IMG/VR virus record: IMGVR_UViG_3300045738_001195
Location: 1 to 20,752 of that record
Length of the DNA stretch: 20,752 bases
Direction: 5' to 3' (one strand)
Source: a virus
Within the stretch, counting starts at the first letter, position 1. Each line of letters begins with the position of its first letter. Below the pieces are notes generated by a model, which was given only the letters and a program-made list of their open reading frames with translations, was not told where the DNA came from and searched no databases. Positions 2,245-7,706 of the stretch are shown in pieces. A program made the translations under genes and the position numbers.

Positions 2245-2453
2245 GCGACTGCCTTGCCAATCAAATCCTTTGCGGATACCGGAATATCGCGTTCCGCCGC
2301 AGCCGCCAGAATTCGGCGCTGAAGTTCAATCGTCTTGGCGCCCGCAATTGCGCCCCGGTCTTTCCAGCTTTGGATGGTGGTGGTTGGGATGCCGGTGTCG
2401 CGGTGCATTTGTTGCACGCCACCAAACGCTTCTATAATTTCATTTGCTGTCAT
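2241..2453 (-). CDS. Cro-like HTH regulator, 70 aa
   Basis: A compact HTH protein that is the first gene of the leftward early operon and is divergent from the S24 repressor. The N-terminal half reads as an [32 protein letters not shown]. This resembles Cro/YdaS-like and carph-isopro-type small regulators. Its position makes it the likely lytic-side regulator acting on the operators at 2468-2527 and 3230-3264. The ATG at 2453 has no Shine-Dalgarno sequence upstream, and the predicted transcription start lies only about 2 nt before it, so the mRNA may be leaderless. It is coupled to the methyltransferase by a 4-nt overlap. Operator sharing with the repressor is inferred from location. Confidence 0.78.
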
Positions 2454-2461
2454 GGGAGCGC

Positions 2462-2490
2462 ATTATTTACGCATTTGCGTATTTTGTCAA
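2462..2490 (-). promoter_or_regulatory. Leftward early promoter (PL-like)
   Basis: Read on the minus strand, a perfect -35 TTGACA lies at 2490-2485 and an AATAAT -10 at 2467-2462, separated by 17 nt. The spacer begins and is mostly filled by operator O1. The expected start point is near 2455, just before the cro-like ATG at 2453. The layout predicts strong sigma70 transcription that is blocked when O1 is occupied. Confidence 0.8.
2468..2481. promoter_or_regulatory. Operator O1
   Basis: Inverted repeat TACGCA-TT-TGCGTA with perfect 6-bp arms. It lies between the -10 and -35 of the leftward promoter, so bound repressor would exclude RNA polymerase. It shares the consensus ACGCA-NN-TGCGT with four other sites. 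Confidence 0.82.
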
Positions 2491-2502
2491 CGCAAAAACG
2501 TA
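2489..2502. promoter_or_regulatory. Operator O2 (imperfect)
   Basis: AACGCA-AA-AACGTA is a degenerate copy of the consensus with one good half-site. Its centre is 21 bp from O1, about two helical turns, and it overlaps the leftward -35 by 2 bp. Its mirror counterpart O4 sits at the same place relative to the rightward promoter. Confidence 0.65.
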
Positions 2503-2531
2503 CAAGAGGCCTGGACGCAAATGCGTATTAT
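2501..2531 (+). promoter_or_regulatory. Weak repressor-maintenance promoter (PRM-like)
   Basis: A TATTAT -10 lies at 2526-2531. There is no good -35: the best candidate is TACAAG at 2501-2506, with a 19-nt spacer. Weakness is expected for a repressor promoter that needs activation or runs at low level. The repressor ATG is about 30 nt beyond the predicted start. Low certainty. Confidence 0.4.
2514..2527. promoter_or_regulatory. Operator O3
   Basis: GACGCA-AA-TGCGTA has perfect 5-bp core arms. Its centre is 25 bp from O2. It touches the likely -10 of the repressor promoter (TATTAT, 2526-2531), which would allow negative autoregulation of the repressor, as at lambda OR3. Confidence 0.75.
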
Positions 2532-2567
2532 CCGCCGTAAGAATGAGATGCCGCGAAAGGAGCGCAC

Positions 2568-3197
2568 ATGTCCATGGTTAGAGGCGAACTTAGGAGGCTT
2601 CGGAAAAAAGCTGAATTGACACTATTGGATTGCGCGCGGCCCCTGGGCGCCAACAGCGCAAGCTCATATCAGCACTACGAAGATCGGTTTAAGGACAAAT
2701 ACCTACCGCTCGATGTTGTTCTGCGGCTGCGCCCGCTGTTTGTATCGAAGGGCATCAGCGAAAGAGAATTCCTCGCGCTGGCCGATCCGCAATTGACAAA
2801 TTATTTAGTCCACCTGCAAAATACGGTGATGGTGCCAGAAATATCTAATGTGCCTGCCGGGGGATTTGCGGAAGCGTTGGAAAATTTGAACAATCCCCTT
2901 TACCATCCCATAGATTATCCCAATTCCACGGTGGCGGTTCTGCGTGTCACCGGCAACAGCATGGATCGCGCTGGTCTGCCGGATCGATCTAAGGTGGTGA
3001 TTGACTACAGCGTAACCGTGCCGAAAGACGGGTGCATTTATGTATTTCGTTTGAACAATGAAATCACCATCAAACGATACCGAGATAACCCGCCACGGTT
3101 AGAGCCGGATTCAAACGAACAGGGACACGAAACTACATTCGGCGTCGAGGGGCTGGAATGCCTAGGCCGAGCTGTGAAAGTTTTATTGGACATCTGA
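2568..3197 (+). CDS. CI-like repressor with S24 self-cleavage domain
   Basis: The protein has 209 aa. The N-terminal ~65 residues are a basic DNA-binding domain (MVRGELRRLRKKAEL), followed by a linker and a LexA/CI-type peptidase domain. Visible catalytic elements are the likely cleavage bond Ala97-Gly98 in VPAGGF, Ser131 in TGNSM and Lys169 in ITIKRY. In this family RecA filaments trigger self-cleavage after DNA damage, which separates the DNA-binding and dimerising parts and induces the prophage. The start at 2568 is supported by AAAGGAG 5 nt upstream. The gene lies between two operator clusters, O1-O3 on its left and O4-O5 on its right. It very likely represses both early promoters and maintains lysogeny. 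Confidence 0.88.
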   Translation: MSMVRGELRRLRKKAELTLLDCARPLGANSASSYQHYEDRFKDKYLPLDVVLRLRPLFVSKGISEREFLALADPQLTNYLVHLQNTVMVPEISNVPAGGFAEALENLNNPLYHPIDYPNSTVAVLRVTGNSMDRAGLPDRSKVVIDYSVTVPKDGCIYVFRLNNEITIKRYRDNPPRLEPDSNEQGHETTFGVEGLECLGRAVKVLLDI

Positions 3198-3229
3198 TTC
3201 GCCAGGGGGACATTTTTTTTGCCCGGCAT

Positions 3230-3243
3230 TACGCTTTTGCGTT
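3230..3243. promoter_or_regulatory. Operator O4
   Basis: TACGCT-TT-TGCGTT is an imperfect copy of the operator consensus. It overlaps the rightward -35 by 2 bp, and its centre is 21 bp from O5. Apart from one base it equals the reverse complement of O2. Confidence 0.72.
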
Positions 3244-3269
3244 GACAATATACGCAAATGCGTTAAAAT
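3242..3269 (+). promoter_or_regulatory. Rightward early promoter (PR-like)
   Basis: A perfect -35 TTGACA lies at 3242-3247 and a TAAAAT -10 at 3264-3269, with a 16-nt spacer occupied by O5. The expected start is near 3276, about 26 nt before the first gene of the recombination operon (3302). The whole 3230-3264 block is an inverted near-copy of 2468-2502. Just upstream, a T8 tract at 3213-3220 follows the repressor gene, but I see no convincing hairpin before it. Confidence 0.8.
3251..3264. promoter_or_regulatory. Operator O5
   Basis: TACGCA-AA-TGCGTT has perfect 5-bp core arms. It fills the spacer between -35 and -10 of the rightward promoter, exactly as O1 does on the left. Confidence 0.8.
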
Positions 3270-3301: not shown

Positions 3302-3607
3302 ATGGCAGACCGACATGACCACGCGGCAAGGAAAATGAATTTCGACATTGAATACCTGGGTTGCCCGCCGATCCCGCAGCACCTTCGCGCTGGGCTGGGC
3401 AGTTACATCAACCATCATCAACCAACGGGCGGCGGCTTGCAGGCCATTCTCGAAAACGACCTGCACGGCGCCTTGACGCGCGCGGACCCGGAAACCCGCG
3501 CCGCCTTGCCGACGATAGCCTGTTTCCTGCATAACGAAGCACCAAGCGCTTGCCACGGTTCGAAAGAAAATGTGGCGGCCTGGCTTGCTGGCGCGGCTGA
3601 GGAATAG
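3302..3607 (+). CDS. Conserved small phage protein, 101 aa
   Basis: First gene of the rightward early operon. I place the start at ATG 3302, preceded by a G-rich, GGGGGGAAGA-type ribosome binding site. An in-frame ATG at 3335 (MNFDIEYLG) is an alternative. The pattern IPQHLRAGLGSYINH, LENDLHGALTRAD, and NEAPSACHGS...VAAWL is a recurring layout of short cytoplasmic proteins in proteobacterial phage early regions, whose function is unassigned. There is no signal peptide, membrane helix or metal motif. Being first behind a repressor-controlled promoter, it would be made very early on induction. Confidence 0.72.
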   Translation: MADRHDHAARKMNFDIEYLGCPPIPQHLRAGLGSYINHHQPTGGGLQAILENDLHGALTRADPETRAALPTIACFLHNEAPSACHGSKENVAAWLAGAAEE

Positions 3608-3610
3608 CCC

Positions 3611-3907
3611 ATGACCAGCCAGCACGGCGAACTGCTTGCCCGGATCGACGCCGCCATGGCCTGCCCGGAAATGCCGGAGGCGGCCCGCAAGGAACTCCGA
3701 GCGCTACGCAAGTTCGTCAACGGCACGGTGATCGGCTTTCCCATCGGCTACACCTGCGACGGTTGCGGCACACACCATGCCTTCAATATCCCAGCGGGTG
3801 CATGGAATGGCGGTGTCTGGCACACCTGTACGAGATGCAGGCAGACCAATGACCTGACGGCCGGCATCAACATGGGCGAAGTCACCAGCAAAAGGCGCGT
3901 GGCATGA
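3611..3907 (+). CDS. Zinc-ribbon-like phage protein, 98 aa
   Basis: The N-terminal third is a helical, Ala/Glu-rich segment (ELLARIDAAMACPEM). The C-terminal part has two CxxC knuckles, Cys49/Cys52 in CDGC and Cys73/Cys76 in CTRC. They are separated by about 20 residues containing Trp and His, which fits a zinc ribbon. The gene begins 4 nt after the preceding stop and ends overlapping the next ATG (ATGA at 3904-3907). It may bind nucleic acid or a partner protein; I cannot name a family. Confidence 0.65.
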   Translation: MTSQHGELLARIDAAMACPEMPEAARKELRALRKFVNGTVIGFPIGYTCDGCGTHHAFNIPAGAWNGGVWHTCTRCRQTNDLTAGINMGEVTSKRRVA

Positions 3908-4029
3908 CCCTCCTTGCCCGTCTATGGCGCTGGCTGCGGTACCGCCACTCGTACCTGGACAGGCCACTTAGCGAGCGGTTGGTCACGATCCACGTTAGGG
4001 AAATAACAAACATCAGGAGGTTGGGATGA
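3904..4029 (+). CDS. Short basic protein, 41 aa
   Basis: The ORF MTLLARLWRWLRYRH... starts on the ATGA overlap with the zinc-ribbon gene and ends on an ATGA overlap with the next small gene. It is rich in Arg, Trp and Leu, an amphipathic cationic composition. No family is recognised. The chain of 4-nt overlaps on both sides is the main evidence that it is translated. It may serve mainly to couple translation. Confidence 0.45.
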   Translation: MTLLARLWRWLRYRHSYLDRPLSERLVTIHVREITNIRRLG

Positions 4030-4112
4030 CGGATCCAGAGCGCACCTTTGTCGCCGCCTGCCTGCTCGGCTTTTGCAGCGGCATGGCGCTGTTTCTGGTT
4101 TTGGCGTTATGA
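4026..4112 (+). CDS. Mini membrane protein, 28 aa
   Basis: The ORF MTDPERTFVAACLLGF... has a perfect AGGAGG (4015-4020) 5 nt before its ATG, which is the best ribosome binding site in the operon. It encodes a single hydrophobic helix (VAACLLGFCSG, MALFLVLAL) with a short acidic/basic N-terminus. Its stop overlaps the exonuclease ATG (4109). Either it is a functional single-pass peptide or it works as a leader that loads ribosomes for the exonuclease gene. Confidence 0.55.
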   Translation: MTDPERTFVAACLLGFCSGMALFLVLAL

Positions 4113-4933
4113 CAGCCATGCAAACCCAGGGCTTGGTTGTCCTGTCCCACCCGCCTGAATGGCACGCCCGGCGCGAGGGCAAATTCACCGGCAGCCCCGC
4201 ATCGCCGCTCATGCGCGGAGAGCTAACCGAAGTATATGACGGCATGACGGGCGGCGGCAAAGACCTGTCCGGCGTTATTTTGCCGACCATGGGTACCACG
4301 CTCCAGCCATTGATTGCCCACCATTACGAATTGCAGACCGGGACACCAATCACCGAATACGAGGCGTGGAAGGTACACCCGGAAATCGAATGGATGGCGT
4401 GTAATCAGGACGGCCGCGCGGGCGACCGGATGGCGGAAATTAAGTTCACTACCGGGCGGAAATCGCTGCCGGAACTGGTTGAATCCTACATGGGCCAGTT
4501 GGTCCACAATACCATAATCGCACAGGCCACAGACCCGGCCATAACGGGCTGGGTACTGATCGTGCTGACGGGCTGGGGAGCGCTGCAAATTCAGGAAGGC
4601 GCAGTTGACCCATTTTATGCCGACATACTGATGGAACGCGAAGAGGCGATGATGGAGTGCATCAAAGCCGGCGCGCGGCCTGGTGACGGCATTGTCGTTG
4701 CCGCGCCCGTGCCGCAATCGGAATGGCGCACCGTTGATATGACCGGCTCGAACGAATGGGCGTCATTGGCTACGGACTGGCTGGGGAACAAATCCGCCGC
4801 CGCGAAATTCGACAAGGCCGGCAAGGGCATCAAGGAATTGATTGAGCCGGACGTTGGCGAGGCCGGCGGGTATGGCCTGAAGGTGAAGCGGGCGAAGAAT
4901 AATTCATTGCGGATTAGCGAGGTAAAGTCATGA
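4109..4933 (+). CDS. YqaJ/lambda-exo-type recombination exonuclease
   Basis: This 274-aa protein resembles the YqaJ viral recombinase family, which resects double-stranded DNA 5' to 3' and hands single strands to an annealing protein. The motifs follow the family order: SPLMRGEL near the N-terminus, Glu73 in AHHYE, Asp101 in CNQDG, the catalytic AEIKF (Glu110, Lys112), and Gln130 in YMGQLVHN. I start it at ATG 4109, which overlaps the preceding stop (ATGA). The same frame extends to 4073, but that part overlaps the mini membrane gene and has no ribosome binding site. The next gene is its expected partner, ERF. Together they form a RecET-like recombination module, active in the cytoplasm on replicating or circularising phage DNA. 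Confidence 0.85.
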   Translation: MTAMQTQGLVVLSHPPEWHARREGKFTGSPASPLMRGELTEVYDGMTGGGKDLSGVILPTMGTTLQPLIAHHYELQTGTPITEYEAWKVHPEIEWMACNQDGRAGDRMAEIKFTTGRKSLPELVESYMGQLVHNTIIAQATDPAITGWVLIVLTGWGALQIQEGAVDPFYADILMEREEAMMECIKAGARPGDGIVVAAPVPQSEWRTVDMTGSNEWASLATDWLGNKSAAAKFDKAGKGIKELIEPDVGEAGGYGLKVKRAKNNSLRISEVKS

Positions 4934-5580
4934 CACAAACGGAAAACATTGCGGACCTGTCGGCGGCGCTGGTGAAGGCGCAGGGCGAAATCGAGGGCGC
5001 GTCAAAATCAGCCACGAACCCGCACCTGAAATCACGATACGCTGACTTGAGCGCGGTGTGGGACGCCTGCCGGGGGCCGCTTACCAAGAACGGCCTGGCC
5101 ATTGTCCAGATGCCGCGCTACTTCGAAAACGAAATGCGGCTGGTGACACGCATCGTCCATTCGTCCGGCCAGTGGCTTGAAGACGACGGGTTTCCGCTGT
5201 TGCTTGGCAAGCAGGATATGCAGGGGCTCGGCAGCGCAACCACCTATGCGCGGCGGTACGGGCTTATGGCGGCGGTGGGGATCGCGCCGGAAGACGACGA
5301 CGGCAACGCGGCCAGCGACGGTAAGGGACAGGCGGTGAACGGCGCCGGCAAGTCCGACGCCAAACCGGCCGACATATCCACCGCGACGGCGTGGACGAAT
5401 GGCGCTCTGCCGAAAATCGCGCAGTTCGGCACCCTTGCCGAATTGGAGGCGTGGGAAAAGAAATGCAAGGCCAACCTGGACAACATTGAAAATAACTACC
5501 CCGAAAATTGGGCAAAAATTGTCGACGCCACCAGGGACAAACGATCCACCTTTCCAGATGAGCGGGCGGCCAGGGGCTGA
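4930..5580 (+). CDS. erf: ERF-family single-strand annealing protein
   Basis: This 216-aa protein carries the core of the P22 Erf family. ATNPHLKSRYADLSAVWDAC lies near the N-terminus, and the diagnostic QGLGSATTYARRYGL is followed by an acidic AVGIAPEDDDGN loop. Erf proteins form rings that anneal complementary single strands and circularise linear phage DNA. The C-terminal 80 residues are less conserved and may recruit partners. The ATG overlaps the stop of the exonuclease (ATGA at 4930-4933), the usual pairing of a nuclease with its annealase. Confidence 0.92.
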   Translation: MTQTENIADLSAALVKAQGEIEGASKSATNPHLKSRYADLSAVWDACRGPLTKNGLAIVQMPRYFENEMRLVTRIVHSSGQWLEDDGFPLLLGKQDMQGLGSATTYARRYGLMAAVGIAPEDDDGNAASDGKGQAVNGAGKSDAKPADISTATAWTNGALPKIAQFGTLAELEAWEKKCKANLDNIENNYPENWAKIVDATRDKRSTFPDERAARG

Positions 5581-6047
5581 TGCCTGACCGCGTCATAGTC
5601 ACCGAGAGTGACCGCAACATGCTGGAGCGGTGGCTGGGCGGCATGGGTCTGCCGTTCACCGTGTCCGTCACCAGTGGCAAGCGGCGTTCCGTGGGGCAAA
5701 ATCGTCTCCAGCGGCTTTGGTGCAACGAGATTGCCGAGCAGCGCGGCGACATGACGCACGAGGAAGTACGCGCGGAAATCAAGCTCCACCACGGCGTGCC
5801 GATTTTGCGGGCCGAAAACGAGGCGTTCTGCGAAGCCTATGACAAGGCGGTGAAGCCGCAATCCGTGGAAATCAAGCTGATGTATATGTCCGAGCCGTTG
5901 GATTTCCCGGTGACGCGGCTGATGACGGTGAAGCAGAAGTCCGCGTATCTGGACGCCGTATACCGCTACTATACGGCGCAGGGCTTTCGGCTGACAGCAC
6001 CGGACGAACAGGGAATGGCCAGCACCAATTCGGGGGCGGGGCCATGA
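5580..6047 (+). CDS. NinB-like recombination-associated protein, 155 aa
   Basis: The ATG overlaps the erf stop by one base (TGATG). After a short beta-like N-terminus, the sequence SGKRRSVGQNRLQRLWCNEIAEQ resembles the start of NinB/Orf proteins (KR.REQN..LW). NinB/Orf proteins bind single-stranded DNA and assist recombination in lambda. The rest (HHGVPILRAENEAF, FPVTRLMTVKQKSAYLDAVYRYY) is typical of conserved alphaproteobacterial prophage proteins placed after an annealase. The position fits a recombination accessory role. The NinB assignment is moderate because only part of the pattern matches. Confidence 0.6.
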   Translation: MPDRVIVTESDRNMLERWLGGMGLPFTVSVTSGKRRSVGQNRLQRLWCNEIAEQRGDMTHEEVRAEIKLHHGVPILRAENEAFCEAYDKAVKPQSVEIKLMYMSEPLDFPVTRLMTVKQKSAYLDAVYRYYTAQGFRLTAPDEQGMASTNSGAGP

Positions 6048-6394
6048 TCCCCAAGCGCCGCAAGCCACAGAAATCGGGCATCCCAAAAGGCACGGAGGCA
6101 ATCTCATGTCGCAGTCATCTGCAACATGTGAGAGGGTTTGTTTGCCTGGGCGCGGCGAAAGAGCCGGGCAAATGCCTGGGCGGCATTGAGGCGCACCACG
6201 TCAAAACGCGCGGGGCGGGAGGCGGGGACGAGCAGGTTGTCCCGCTATGCGTCTTCCACCATGCCAGCGTCCATACGGGGTGGCAATCATTCGAGGCCCG
6301 GCACGGCATCAATTTGGAACGCATTGCGGCCGACATAGCCTGGCATTCACCGCACCTGCGGAAGCTGCGCCTGGCCAAGGAGGCAGCGGAATAA
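6044..6394 (+). CDS. HNH-like / DUF968-type phage endonuclease, 116 aa
   Basis: The protein has the layout of small phage HNH-like proteins. Paired cysteines lie in the N-terminal half (Cys34, Cys44), followed by EAHHVKT (His51, His52), a glycine-rich GAGGGDEQVVPLC loop and FHHASVH (His72, His73, His77). Related lambdoid proteins such as Rap/NinG and DUF968 act on recombination intermediates. The start at ATG 6044 overlaps the preceding stop (ATGA). Its place beside the exonuclease, ERF and NinB-like genes suggests processing of branched DNA. Catalysis is inferred from motifs only. Confidence 0.7.
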   Translation: MIPKRRKPQKSGIPKGTEAISCRSHLQHVRGFVCLGAAKEPGKCLGGIEAHHVKTRGAGGGDEQVVPLCVFHHASVHTGWQSFEARHGINLERIAADIAWHSPHLRKLRLAKEAAE

Positions 6395-6678: not shown

Positions 6679-7706
6679 CCATCAGGCATTTCGTAGAGCG
6701 CGCCGGGGCGTTTTACTATCAGGCAACCCCGGCCATGCGCCGAGGCGGCATTCATAGCGAGGCCCTGGGCGCCGACCGTCACCCAGCCATATTGCGGGCC
6801 GAGGCCCTAAACGACGAATGGGATGCGATCCGCAAGGGCGGCAAAACAAAGGCCCGCGCCGTGACCTTTGATTGGCTGATCCTAAAATATGAGCACTCCA
6901 GCGGATATGCCGTACTCAAACCGAAGACCGTTTTGGAGGTTGATCAATGCACCAAGATCATCGGCTCGATTTTAGGCGGCAGTTCGGTCAGGTCGCTGCG
7001 CCGCTCGCGCATTCTGGAAATCCACGATCAGATATTCGCTCAGGGCAGCCTGCCCCTGGCGAACAAGGTCATTAGACGCTTGAGCGTTTTATTGAACTTC
7101 GCCGTAGAGCGGCAGTTCAGGCCCGACAACCCCGCCCAAAATCTGAATCTGCCGAAGCTGCCGCCACGCAAACAGCGCTGGACGACGGAACAGGTGCGAG
7201 CCGTGATCGACAAGGCGCTGGATATGGGCCTGCCCGGCTGGGCCCGGGGCATCGCCATCGGCTATGACACCTCGCAGCGGCTTTCAGATATTGTTGGCGC
7301 CCTCTGGTCCGCCTATGACGGCGAAGGCATCGAATTCAAACAGGCCAAGACAGGCGTCGAGATGTGGGTGCCACTCTGGTCGGACACTATCGAGATGCTG
7401 AACCAGACGAACCGAACAGCGGTCACCATCATCACGGGCGAGCGAGGCCGCCCGATTAACGAGCCCGGCTATTTTGGAAAACGGTTCAGGGTGATTTGCC
7501 AGGCCGCCGGCATACCGGACGAATTGCAGTTCCGAGACTTGCGCCGCACGGCGGCTACCGAGGTTTCAGCCGGCGGCGGGAACGTGGCCAGCCTGACCGG
7601 ACACGTCGAGGGCAGCCCCATGGCCAAGGTTTATGTCATCAAAACCAAGGACTCGGCCCGGGCCGCACAGGCGGCACGGAAACGGGTCAGGAACAAAAGT
7701 GTTTGA
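6666..7706 (+). CDS. int: Tyrosine integrase
   Basis: This 346-aa site-specific recombinase integrates and excises the phage. The N-terminal part holds the arm-binding and core-binding regions (core-binding about residues 65-155). The catalytic domain shows Arg205 (TSQRLSD), Lys228 (QAKTG), Arg290/Arg293 (FRDLRRT, with the usual His of HxxR replaced by Arg, as in many phage integrases), His313 (LTGHVEG) and the nucleophile Tyr323 (KVYVIK). The ATG at 6666 is preceded by GGGAGGAAG. The stop codon lies inside the first GTTTGAA arm repeat. The attP with a tRNA-Glu-like core begins about 60 bp downstream, as expected for a tRNA-targeting integrase. Confidence 0.93.
   Translation: MATITIRHFVERAGAFYYQATPAMRRGGIHSEALGADRHPAILRAEALNDEWDAIRKGGKTKARAVTFDWLILKYEHSSGYAVLKPKTVLEVDQCTKIIGSILGGSSVRSLRRSRILEIHDQIFAQGSLPLANKVIRRLSVLLNFAVERQFRPDNPAQNLNLPKLPPRKQRWTTEQVRAVIDKALDMGLPGWARGIAIGYDTSQRLSDIVGALWSAYDGEGIEFKQAKTGVEMWVPLWSDTIEMLNQTNRTAVTIITGERGRPINEPGYFGKRFRVICQAAGIPDELQFRDLRRTAATEVSAGGGNVASLTGHVEGSPMAKVYVIKTKDSARAAQAARKRVRNKSV

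Follow-up and report, generated by a model that had tools for sequence, protein, structure and literature searches.

What is the role of two near-identical, inverted blocks that flank a single repressor gene in a viral genome? The question is raised by IMG/VR virus record IMGVR_UViG_3300045738_001195, all 20,752 bases of which are referred to here as the window, where positions 2466–2502 match the reverse complement of 3230–3266 at 34 of 37 positions, with a spacing of 727 nt between the arms. The repeat scores 28, above the maximum of 24 among 500 dinucleotide-shuffled versions of the region. The initial annotation had described near-identical blocks at 2468–2502 and 3230–3264, and the identity of 32/35 in those coordinates was confirmed, as were a perfect TTGACA in each block and, on both sides, an operator in the −35/−10 spacer accompanied by a second operator upstream, with centres 21 bp apart. 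Each arm comprises two operators and the TTGACA box, the −10 boxes lying at or past the arm edge (Table 1). The earlier proposal that a complete promoter is duplicated therefore holds for the TTGACA box and the operators, but not for the −10 boxes, which differ in sequence and spacing; similarly, the upstream operator, described as the weaker of each pair, is imperfect on the left (ACGCAAAAACGT) but a perfect ACGC/GCGT palindrome on the right (ACGCTTTTGCGT).

Table 1. Coordinates of promoter elements, operators and genes around the repressor gene of the window
Feature	Position	Strand	Remarks
Left early operon, read from left promoter	406–2453	−	Pfam and PHROGs matches
Endonuclease/Holliday-resolvase-like protein, left early operon	406–759	−	
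Protein without known function, left early operon	935–1348	−	
Dam-type methyltransferase, left early operon	1345–2244	−	
Cro-like protein, 70 aa, carph-isopro domain	2241–2453	−	NCBIfam NF046037, E = 1.4e-10, above cut-off
−10 box AATAAT, left (PR-like) promoter	2462–2467	−	Spacer 17
Operator O1-left, in −35/−10 spacer	2469–2480	.	ACGCAAATGCGT on minus strand; equivalent site in relatives
−35 box TTGACA, left promoter	2485–2490	−	First T is last base of O2-left
Operator O2-left	2490–2501	.	ACGCAAAAACGT, imperfect; centre at ~−42 of predicted PRM start
Operator O3	2515–2526	.	Perfect ACGCAAATGCGT; overlaps predicted PRM −10 box
−10 box TATTAT, predicted repressor promoter (PRM-like)	2526–2531	+	Predicted from sequence
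Repressor, 209 aa	2568–3197	+	Sole gene between cassettes; Pfam PF00717 (S24), E = 1.2e-12
Operator O2-right	3231–3242	.	ACGCTTTTGCGT
−35 box TTGACA, right (PL-like) promoter	3242–3247	+	First T common to O2-right
Operator O1-right, in −35/−10 spacer	3252–3263	.	ACGCAAATGCGT
−10 box TAAAAT, right promoter	3264–3269	+	Spacer 16
Right early operon, read from right promoter	3302–6394	+	Pfam and PHROGs matches

The operators form two clusters that flank the repressor gene, with three sites on the left (2469–2526) and two on the right (3231–3242 and 3252–3263); the absence of a third operator on the right agrees with the initial annotation, in which the third, perfect operator on the left (2515–2526) was merely implied. 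By sequence, the early promoters diverge away from the repressor gene and are overlapped by operators. We infer the PRM-like promoter from one −10 hexamer and its spacing; it has no recognisable −35 box, its start is predicted at ~2538, and the Shine-Dalgarno AAAGGAG of the repressor gene is at 2556–2562. Numbered from this predicted start, the three operators on the left are at about −63, −42 and −17; with the start so placed, the O2-left centre and the overlap of O3 with the −10 box would fit the lambda PRM scheme. In lambda, CI bound at OR2 activates PRM and CI bound at OR3 represses it. Since the repressor gene is read left to right from the likely promoter at 2526–2531, the left cluster would be the counterpart of OR (cro side, three operators, PRM) and the right cluster that of OL (two operators). 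The window holds three other exact ACGC-N4-GCGT matches, at 7076, 12702 and 18542 (~0.6 expected from base composition); they lie outside the immunity region and were taken as background rather than as operators.

The two arms could also be so alike because one cassette was recently duplicated in inverted orientation or copied by gene conversion, and not solely because they share a function. The 34/37 identity would fit such an origin, as would the agreement of O1-left, O3 and O1-right in their central bases and the unusual 12-bp length common to all five sites. However, the identity ends abruptly at the operator edges, the −10 boxes differ, and nearly all of the matching positions fall in operators or −35 boxes, such that the repeat itself is no evidence for segmental duplication. 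Moreover, several phages with other repressors have similar twin arms, and we consider a recent duplication unlikely.

An exact-pattern search of IMG/VR for cassettes with 13-bp operators returned 74 loci, ten of which hold two matches; all ten pairs face outward, 0.7 to 2.3 kb apart, with a repressor-like gene between them. Relaxed matching extended this set to ~20 phages in which two outward-facing cassettes enclose a repressor gene, and in many of these loci the arms are 26–33/38 alike (34/38 for the window by the same measure). These phages (L026, L225, L228, L235, L236, L244, L245, L249, L287, L290 and others) resemble the window in their half-sites, in the base shared between operator and −35 box, in the outward TTGACA promoters with the repressor gene between them and, in several, in a carph-isopro-like Cro; they differ in having 13-bp operators and mostly another HTH (YLGHENG type), and no BLASTP similarity was detectable between the window repressor and the L287-type repressors. 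Two isolated phages, Ruegeria phage 45A6 (L298) and Mesorhizobium phage vB_MseS-P1 (L299), also carry paired outward cassettes around an S24-like repressor; these cassettes are not annotated, and their operators differ from each other and from those of the window. The twin arms of vB_MseS-P1 match at 34/41 positions with an unrelated operator sequence. Near-identical inverted operator repeats likewise enclose small repressor genes of HTH type, lacking an evident S24 domain, in L051 (2997–3398; 28/31) and L099 (3784–4425; 20/20). The arms of other phages are thus almost as alike as those of the window, and near-identity, which had been put forward as a difference from lambda, is not peculiar to this phage; the twin-cassette design is common among phages of this kind.

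The N-terminal domain of the repressor is helical and lambda-repressor-like, and its helix 3 contains SSYQHYEDRF; the C-terminal domain is of the S24 (LexA/CI) type, in which Ser131 and Lys169 align to the catalytic positions, with Ala97-Gly98 as a candidate cleavage site. In the AlphaFold2 model residues 1–70 mostly have pLDDT >90, whereas the linker and C-terminal part are poor; the best Foldseek match of the model is full-length lambda repressor (3bdn). The uncharacterised YQHYED DNA-binding domain is a peculiarity of this phage. A search of IMG/VR with the repressor as a single protein gave no matches and its relatives were reached solely by profile search; in the alignment, the window repressor and its relatives are only 20–30% identical (closest relative found, ~30%). 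No experimental work on this repressor family, on the related alphaproteobacterial chromosomal regulators or on the ACGCA operator code was found in the literature searched.

The profile identified 23 viral loci and a genome scan six chromosomal ones, with more from a whole-genome search. For 29 non-redundant loci, the window being left out, we counted ACGY-N(n)-RCGT sites no more than 200 bp from the repressor gene, with n from 0 to 15. A spacing of n = 5 gave 18 sites upstream, in 15 of the 29 loci, versus 0.5 expected, and six downstream versus 0.4 expected, while every other spacing gave zero to three sites upstream. This peak around the related repressor genes implies that the ACGY/RCGT half-site goes with this DNA-binding domain. 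In 14 viral relatives, outward promoters scoring at least 9 were found on the left in nine and on the right in six (0.35 and 0.24 in shuffles). The initial annotation had suggested that related prophages be searched for conserved 21-bp pairs; in related phages, cassettes were found on both sides of the repressor gene, in L026 and others, with operators of 13 bp. The layout is complete in locus L026, where a Cro-like homologue accompanies both cassettes; the −35 boxes are 744 bp apart and the arms just 17/38 alike. A general inverted-repeat scan of the loci gave few matches outside the window because the arms of the YQHYED group have diverged, a difficulty solved by anchoring on the promoters.

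The Cro-like protein or a host factor might instead be what chiefly binds the ACGCA sites, with the S24 repressor binding elsewhere, and cro-like genes do accompany the cassettes in several relatives. Against this, the chromosomal homologues L010, L011, L167 and L168 have the same site 49 bp upstream of their start codons; the presence of the half-site at the homologues' own promoters speaks for direct binding by the repressor, and recognition chiefly by another protein appears very improbable. The chromosomal homologues (L009–L014 and L165–L175), from Stella and other Alphaproteobacteria, several with the same operator at a constant distance upstream of the start codon, look from their sequences like autoregulated S24 regulators, to which no function is assigned.

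All five window operators are 12 bp long (N4); in the relatives, the sites that match well have 13 bp (N5). The window consequently falls outside the 13-bp ACGY-N5-RCGT pattern of the ACGC twin-cassette group, and what the relatives show about operators carries over to the window for the half-site but not for the entire site. The 12-bp spacing was seen in no relative, and in none of the 34 loci from a 12-bp pattern search were the two sides of a 12-bp pair equally well matched (many ‘TWIN’ labels in that search came from loose partner matches and were not counted). The spacing change is coordinated across all five operators of the region. In addition, the −10 boxes of the window begin 1–2 positions past the last T of the operator, a base that is shared in the relatives; with this shift the promoter spacers are kept at 16–17. 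Shifts in operator length have a precedent in Rhizobium phage 16-3, where the OL operators have 12 bp and the OR operators 14 bp. We tentatively propose, with slightly less than even confidence, that shortening the half-site spacing by 1 bp altered the repressor-dimer geometry and produced a new immunity specificity, half-site recognition staying the same and the −10 shift compensating. Three AT-rich phages, probably of Gram-positive hosts, with no detectable relative of the window repressor (L005, 1515–1548; L006, 1981–2014; L007, 733–760) also have a TTGACA promoter with a similar pair of 12-bp ACGCA/TGCGT palindromes around it; these pairs are perhaps convergent with those of the window.

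The Cro-like gene is the first of the left early operon, and L026 has a homologue at the same place. By position and domain the carph-isopro protein would be of Cro type; no mention of carph-isopro was found in the literature searched. As the −10 box of the left promoter ends 8 nt ahead of the Cro-like ATG, the left early mRNA is predicted to be leaderless, or nearly so. A cro-side −10 box only 5–8 nt from the ATG is seen in the window (2451–2467) and in L026, L020, L033 and L035, which suggests leaderless cro messages across several phages of the group. The right early operon encodes two small ORFs without assigned function, a RecE/YqaJ-like exonuclease, an Erf annealing protein, a 155-aa protein without family match and a DUF968/nuclease-like protein.

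The cassettes around the repressor gene are most likely, and with high confidence, a compact version of the lambda OL/OR lysogeny switch. The twin outward-pointing blocks and lambda-like logic of the initial annotation are upheld, with conservation of the layout among related phages. On the evidence of sequence elements, homology and conservation, dimers of the 209-aa S24 repressor would bind the five 12-bp operators through the ACGCA half-site, at O1, O2 and O3 between the repressor and cro-like genes (OR-like) and at the two sites just downstream of the repressor gene (OL-like), as pairs about two helical turns apart on each side. Because one operator fills the promoter spacer and the next shares a base with the −35 box, a pair of dimers would shut each outward early promoter. 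A dimer at O2-left, ~−42 from the predicted repressor start, would occupy the position from which lambda CI activates PRM, and O3 over the PRM −10 box probably serves autoregulation by the repressor and/or Cro. Induction upon DNA damage would proceed via S24 self-cleavage.

Repressor bound 0.7–0.8 kb apart may also bridge the two sides, as in HK022 and phiKO2, and by analogy such looping is plausible. Alternatively, the cassettes may be two independent local switches, each promoter being blocked via its own operator pair with no looping contact. Each side does have a complete operator pair, the side-to-side distances in relatives range from ~0.7 to 2.2 kb, and the sequence evidence has no bearing on looping. 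We nevertheless regard independent switches as possible but rather doubtful, as looping is documented in three lambda-like phages of this layout, and in two of them the sides are similarly close (looping in vivo with OL and OR ~630 bp apart in phiKO2 and ~700 bp apart in HK022; PMC8053113).

With a lambda-type switch as the preferred reading, the locus offers a well-defined operator code, with ACGCA half-sites in rigid overlap with promoter boxes, that applies to a group of phage repressors and to related alphaproteobacterial chromosomal regulators, and a natural 1-bp spacing variant for asking how repressor dimers set immunity specificity.

The window shares with lambda-type immunity regions two operator clusters, divergent predicted promoters overlapped by them, a Cro-type gene and an HTH plus S24 repressor. 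The immC region of 16-3 (DQ500118; c repressor, OL1/OL2, OR1/OR2, PL, PR and Pc annotated), also from an alphaproteobacterial phage, is similar in that two operator pairs with outward promoters flank the repressor gene, one operator lying in or over the −35/−10 stretch and one at the −35 box, with the sides ~0.87 kb apart. In contrast to the window, 16-3 has ACAA/TTGT-type half-sites and the operator lengths given above, no annotated third OR operator and arms that are not near-identical, and its C repressor has no significant BLASTP match to the window repressor. A 3 + 2 set of operators flanking one repressor gene has been published for phiKO2 (PMC4997575): immB of phiKO2/N15 (cB, cro, OR1–3, OL1–2) likewise has three operators between repressor and cro and two beyond the lone repressor gene. 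PhiKO2 differs in its 16-bp operators, its linear plasmid prophage, a longest twin match of 17/19 and a CB protein that, unlike the window repressor, is without self-cleavage residues (PMC4997575). Lambda and HK022 share the PL-OL-cI-OR/PRM-cro topology, the HTH plus S24 repressor and operators at both promoters. The BLASTP similarity of HK022 CI to the window repressor is confined to the S24 part, lambda has 17-bp operators in a 3 + 3 arrangement as well as two genes beside cI, and the twin match is 18/20 in lambda and weaker in HK022. The window is therefore a further case of a known switch plan, with its own repressor family and operator code.
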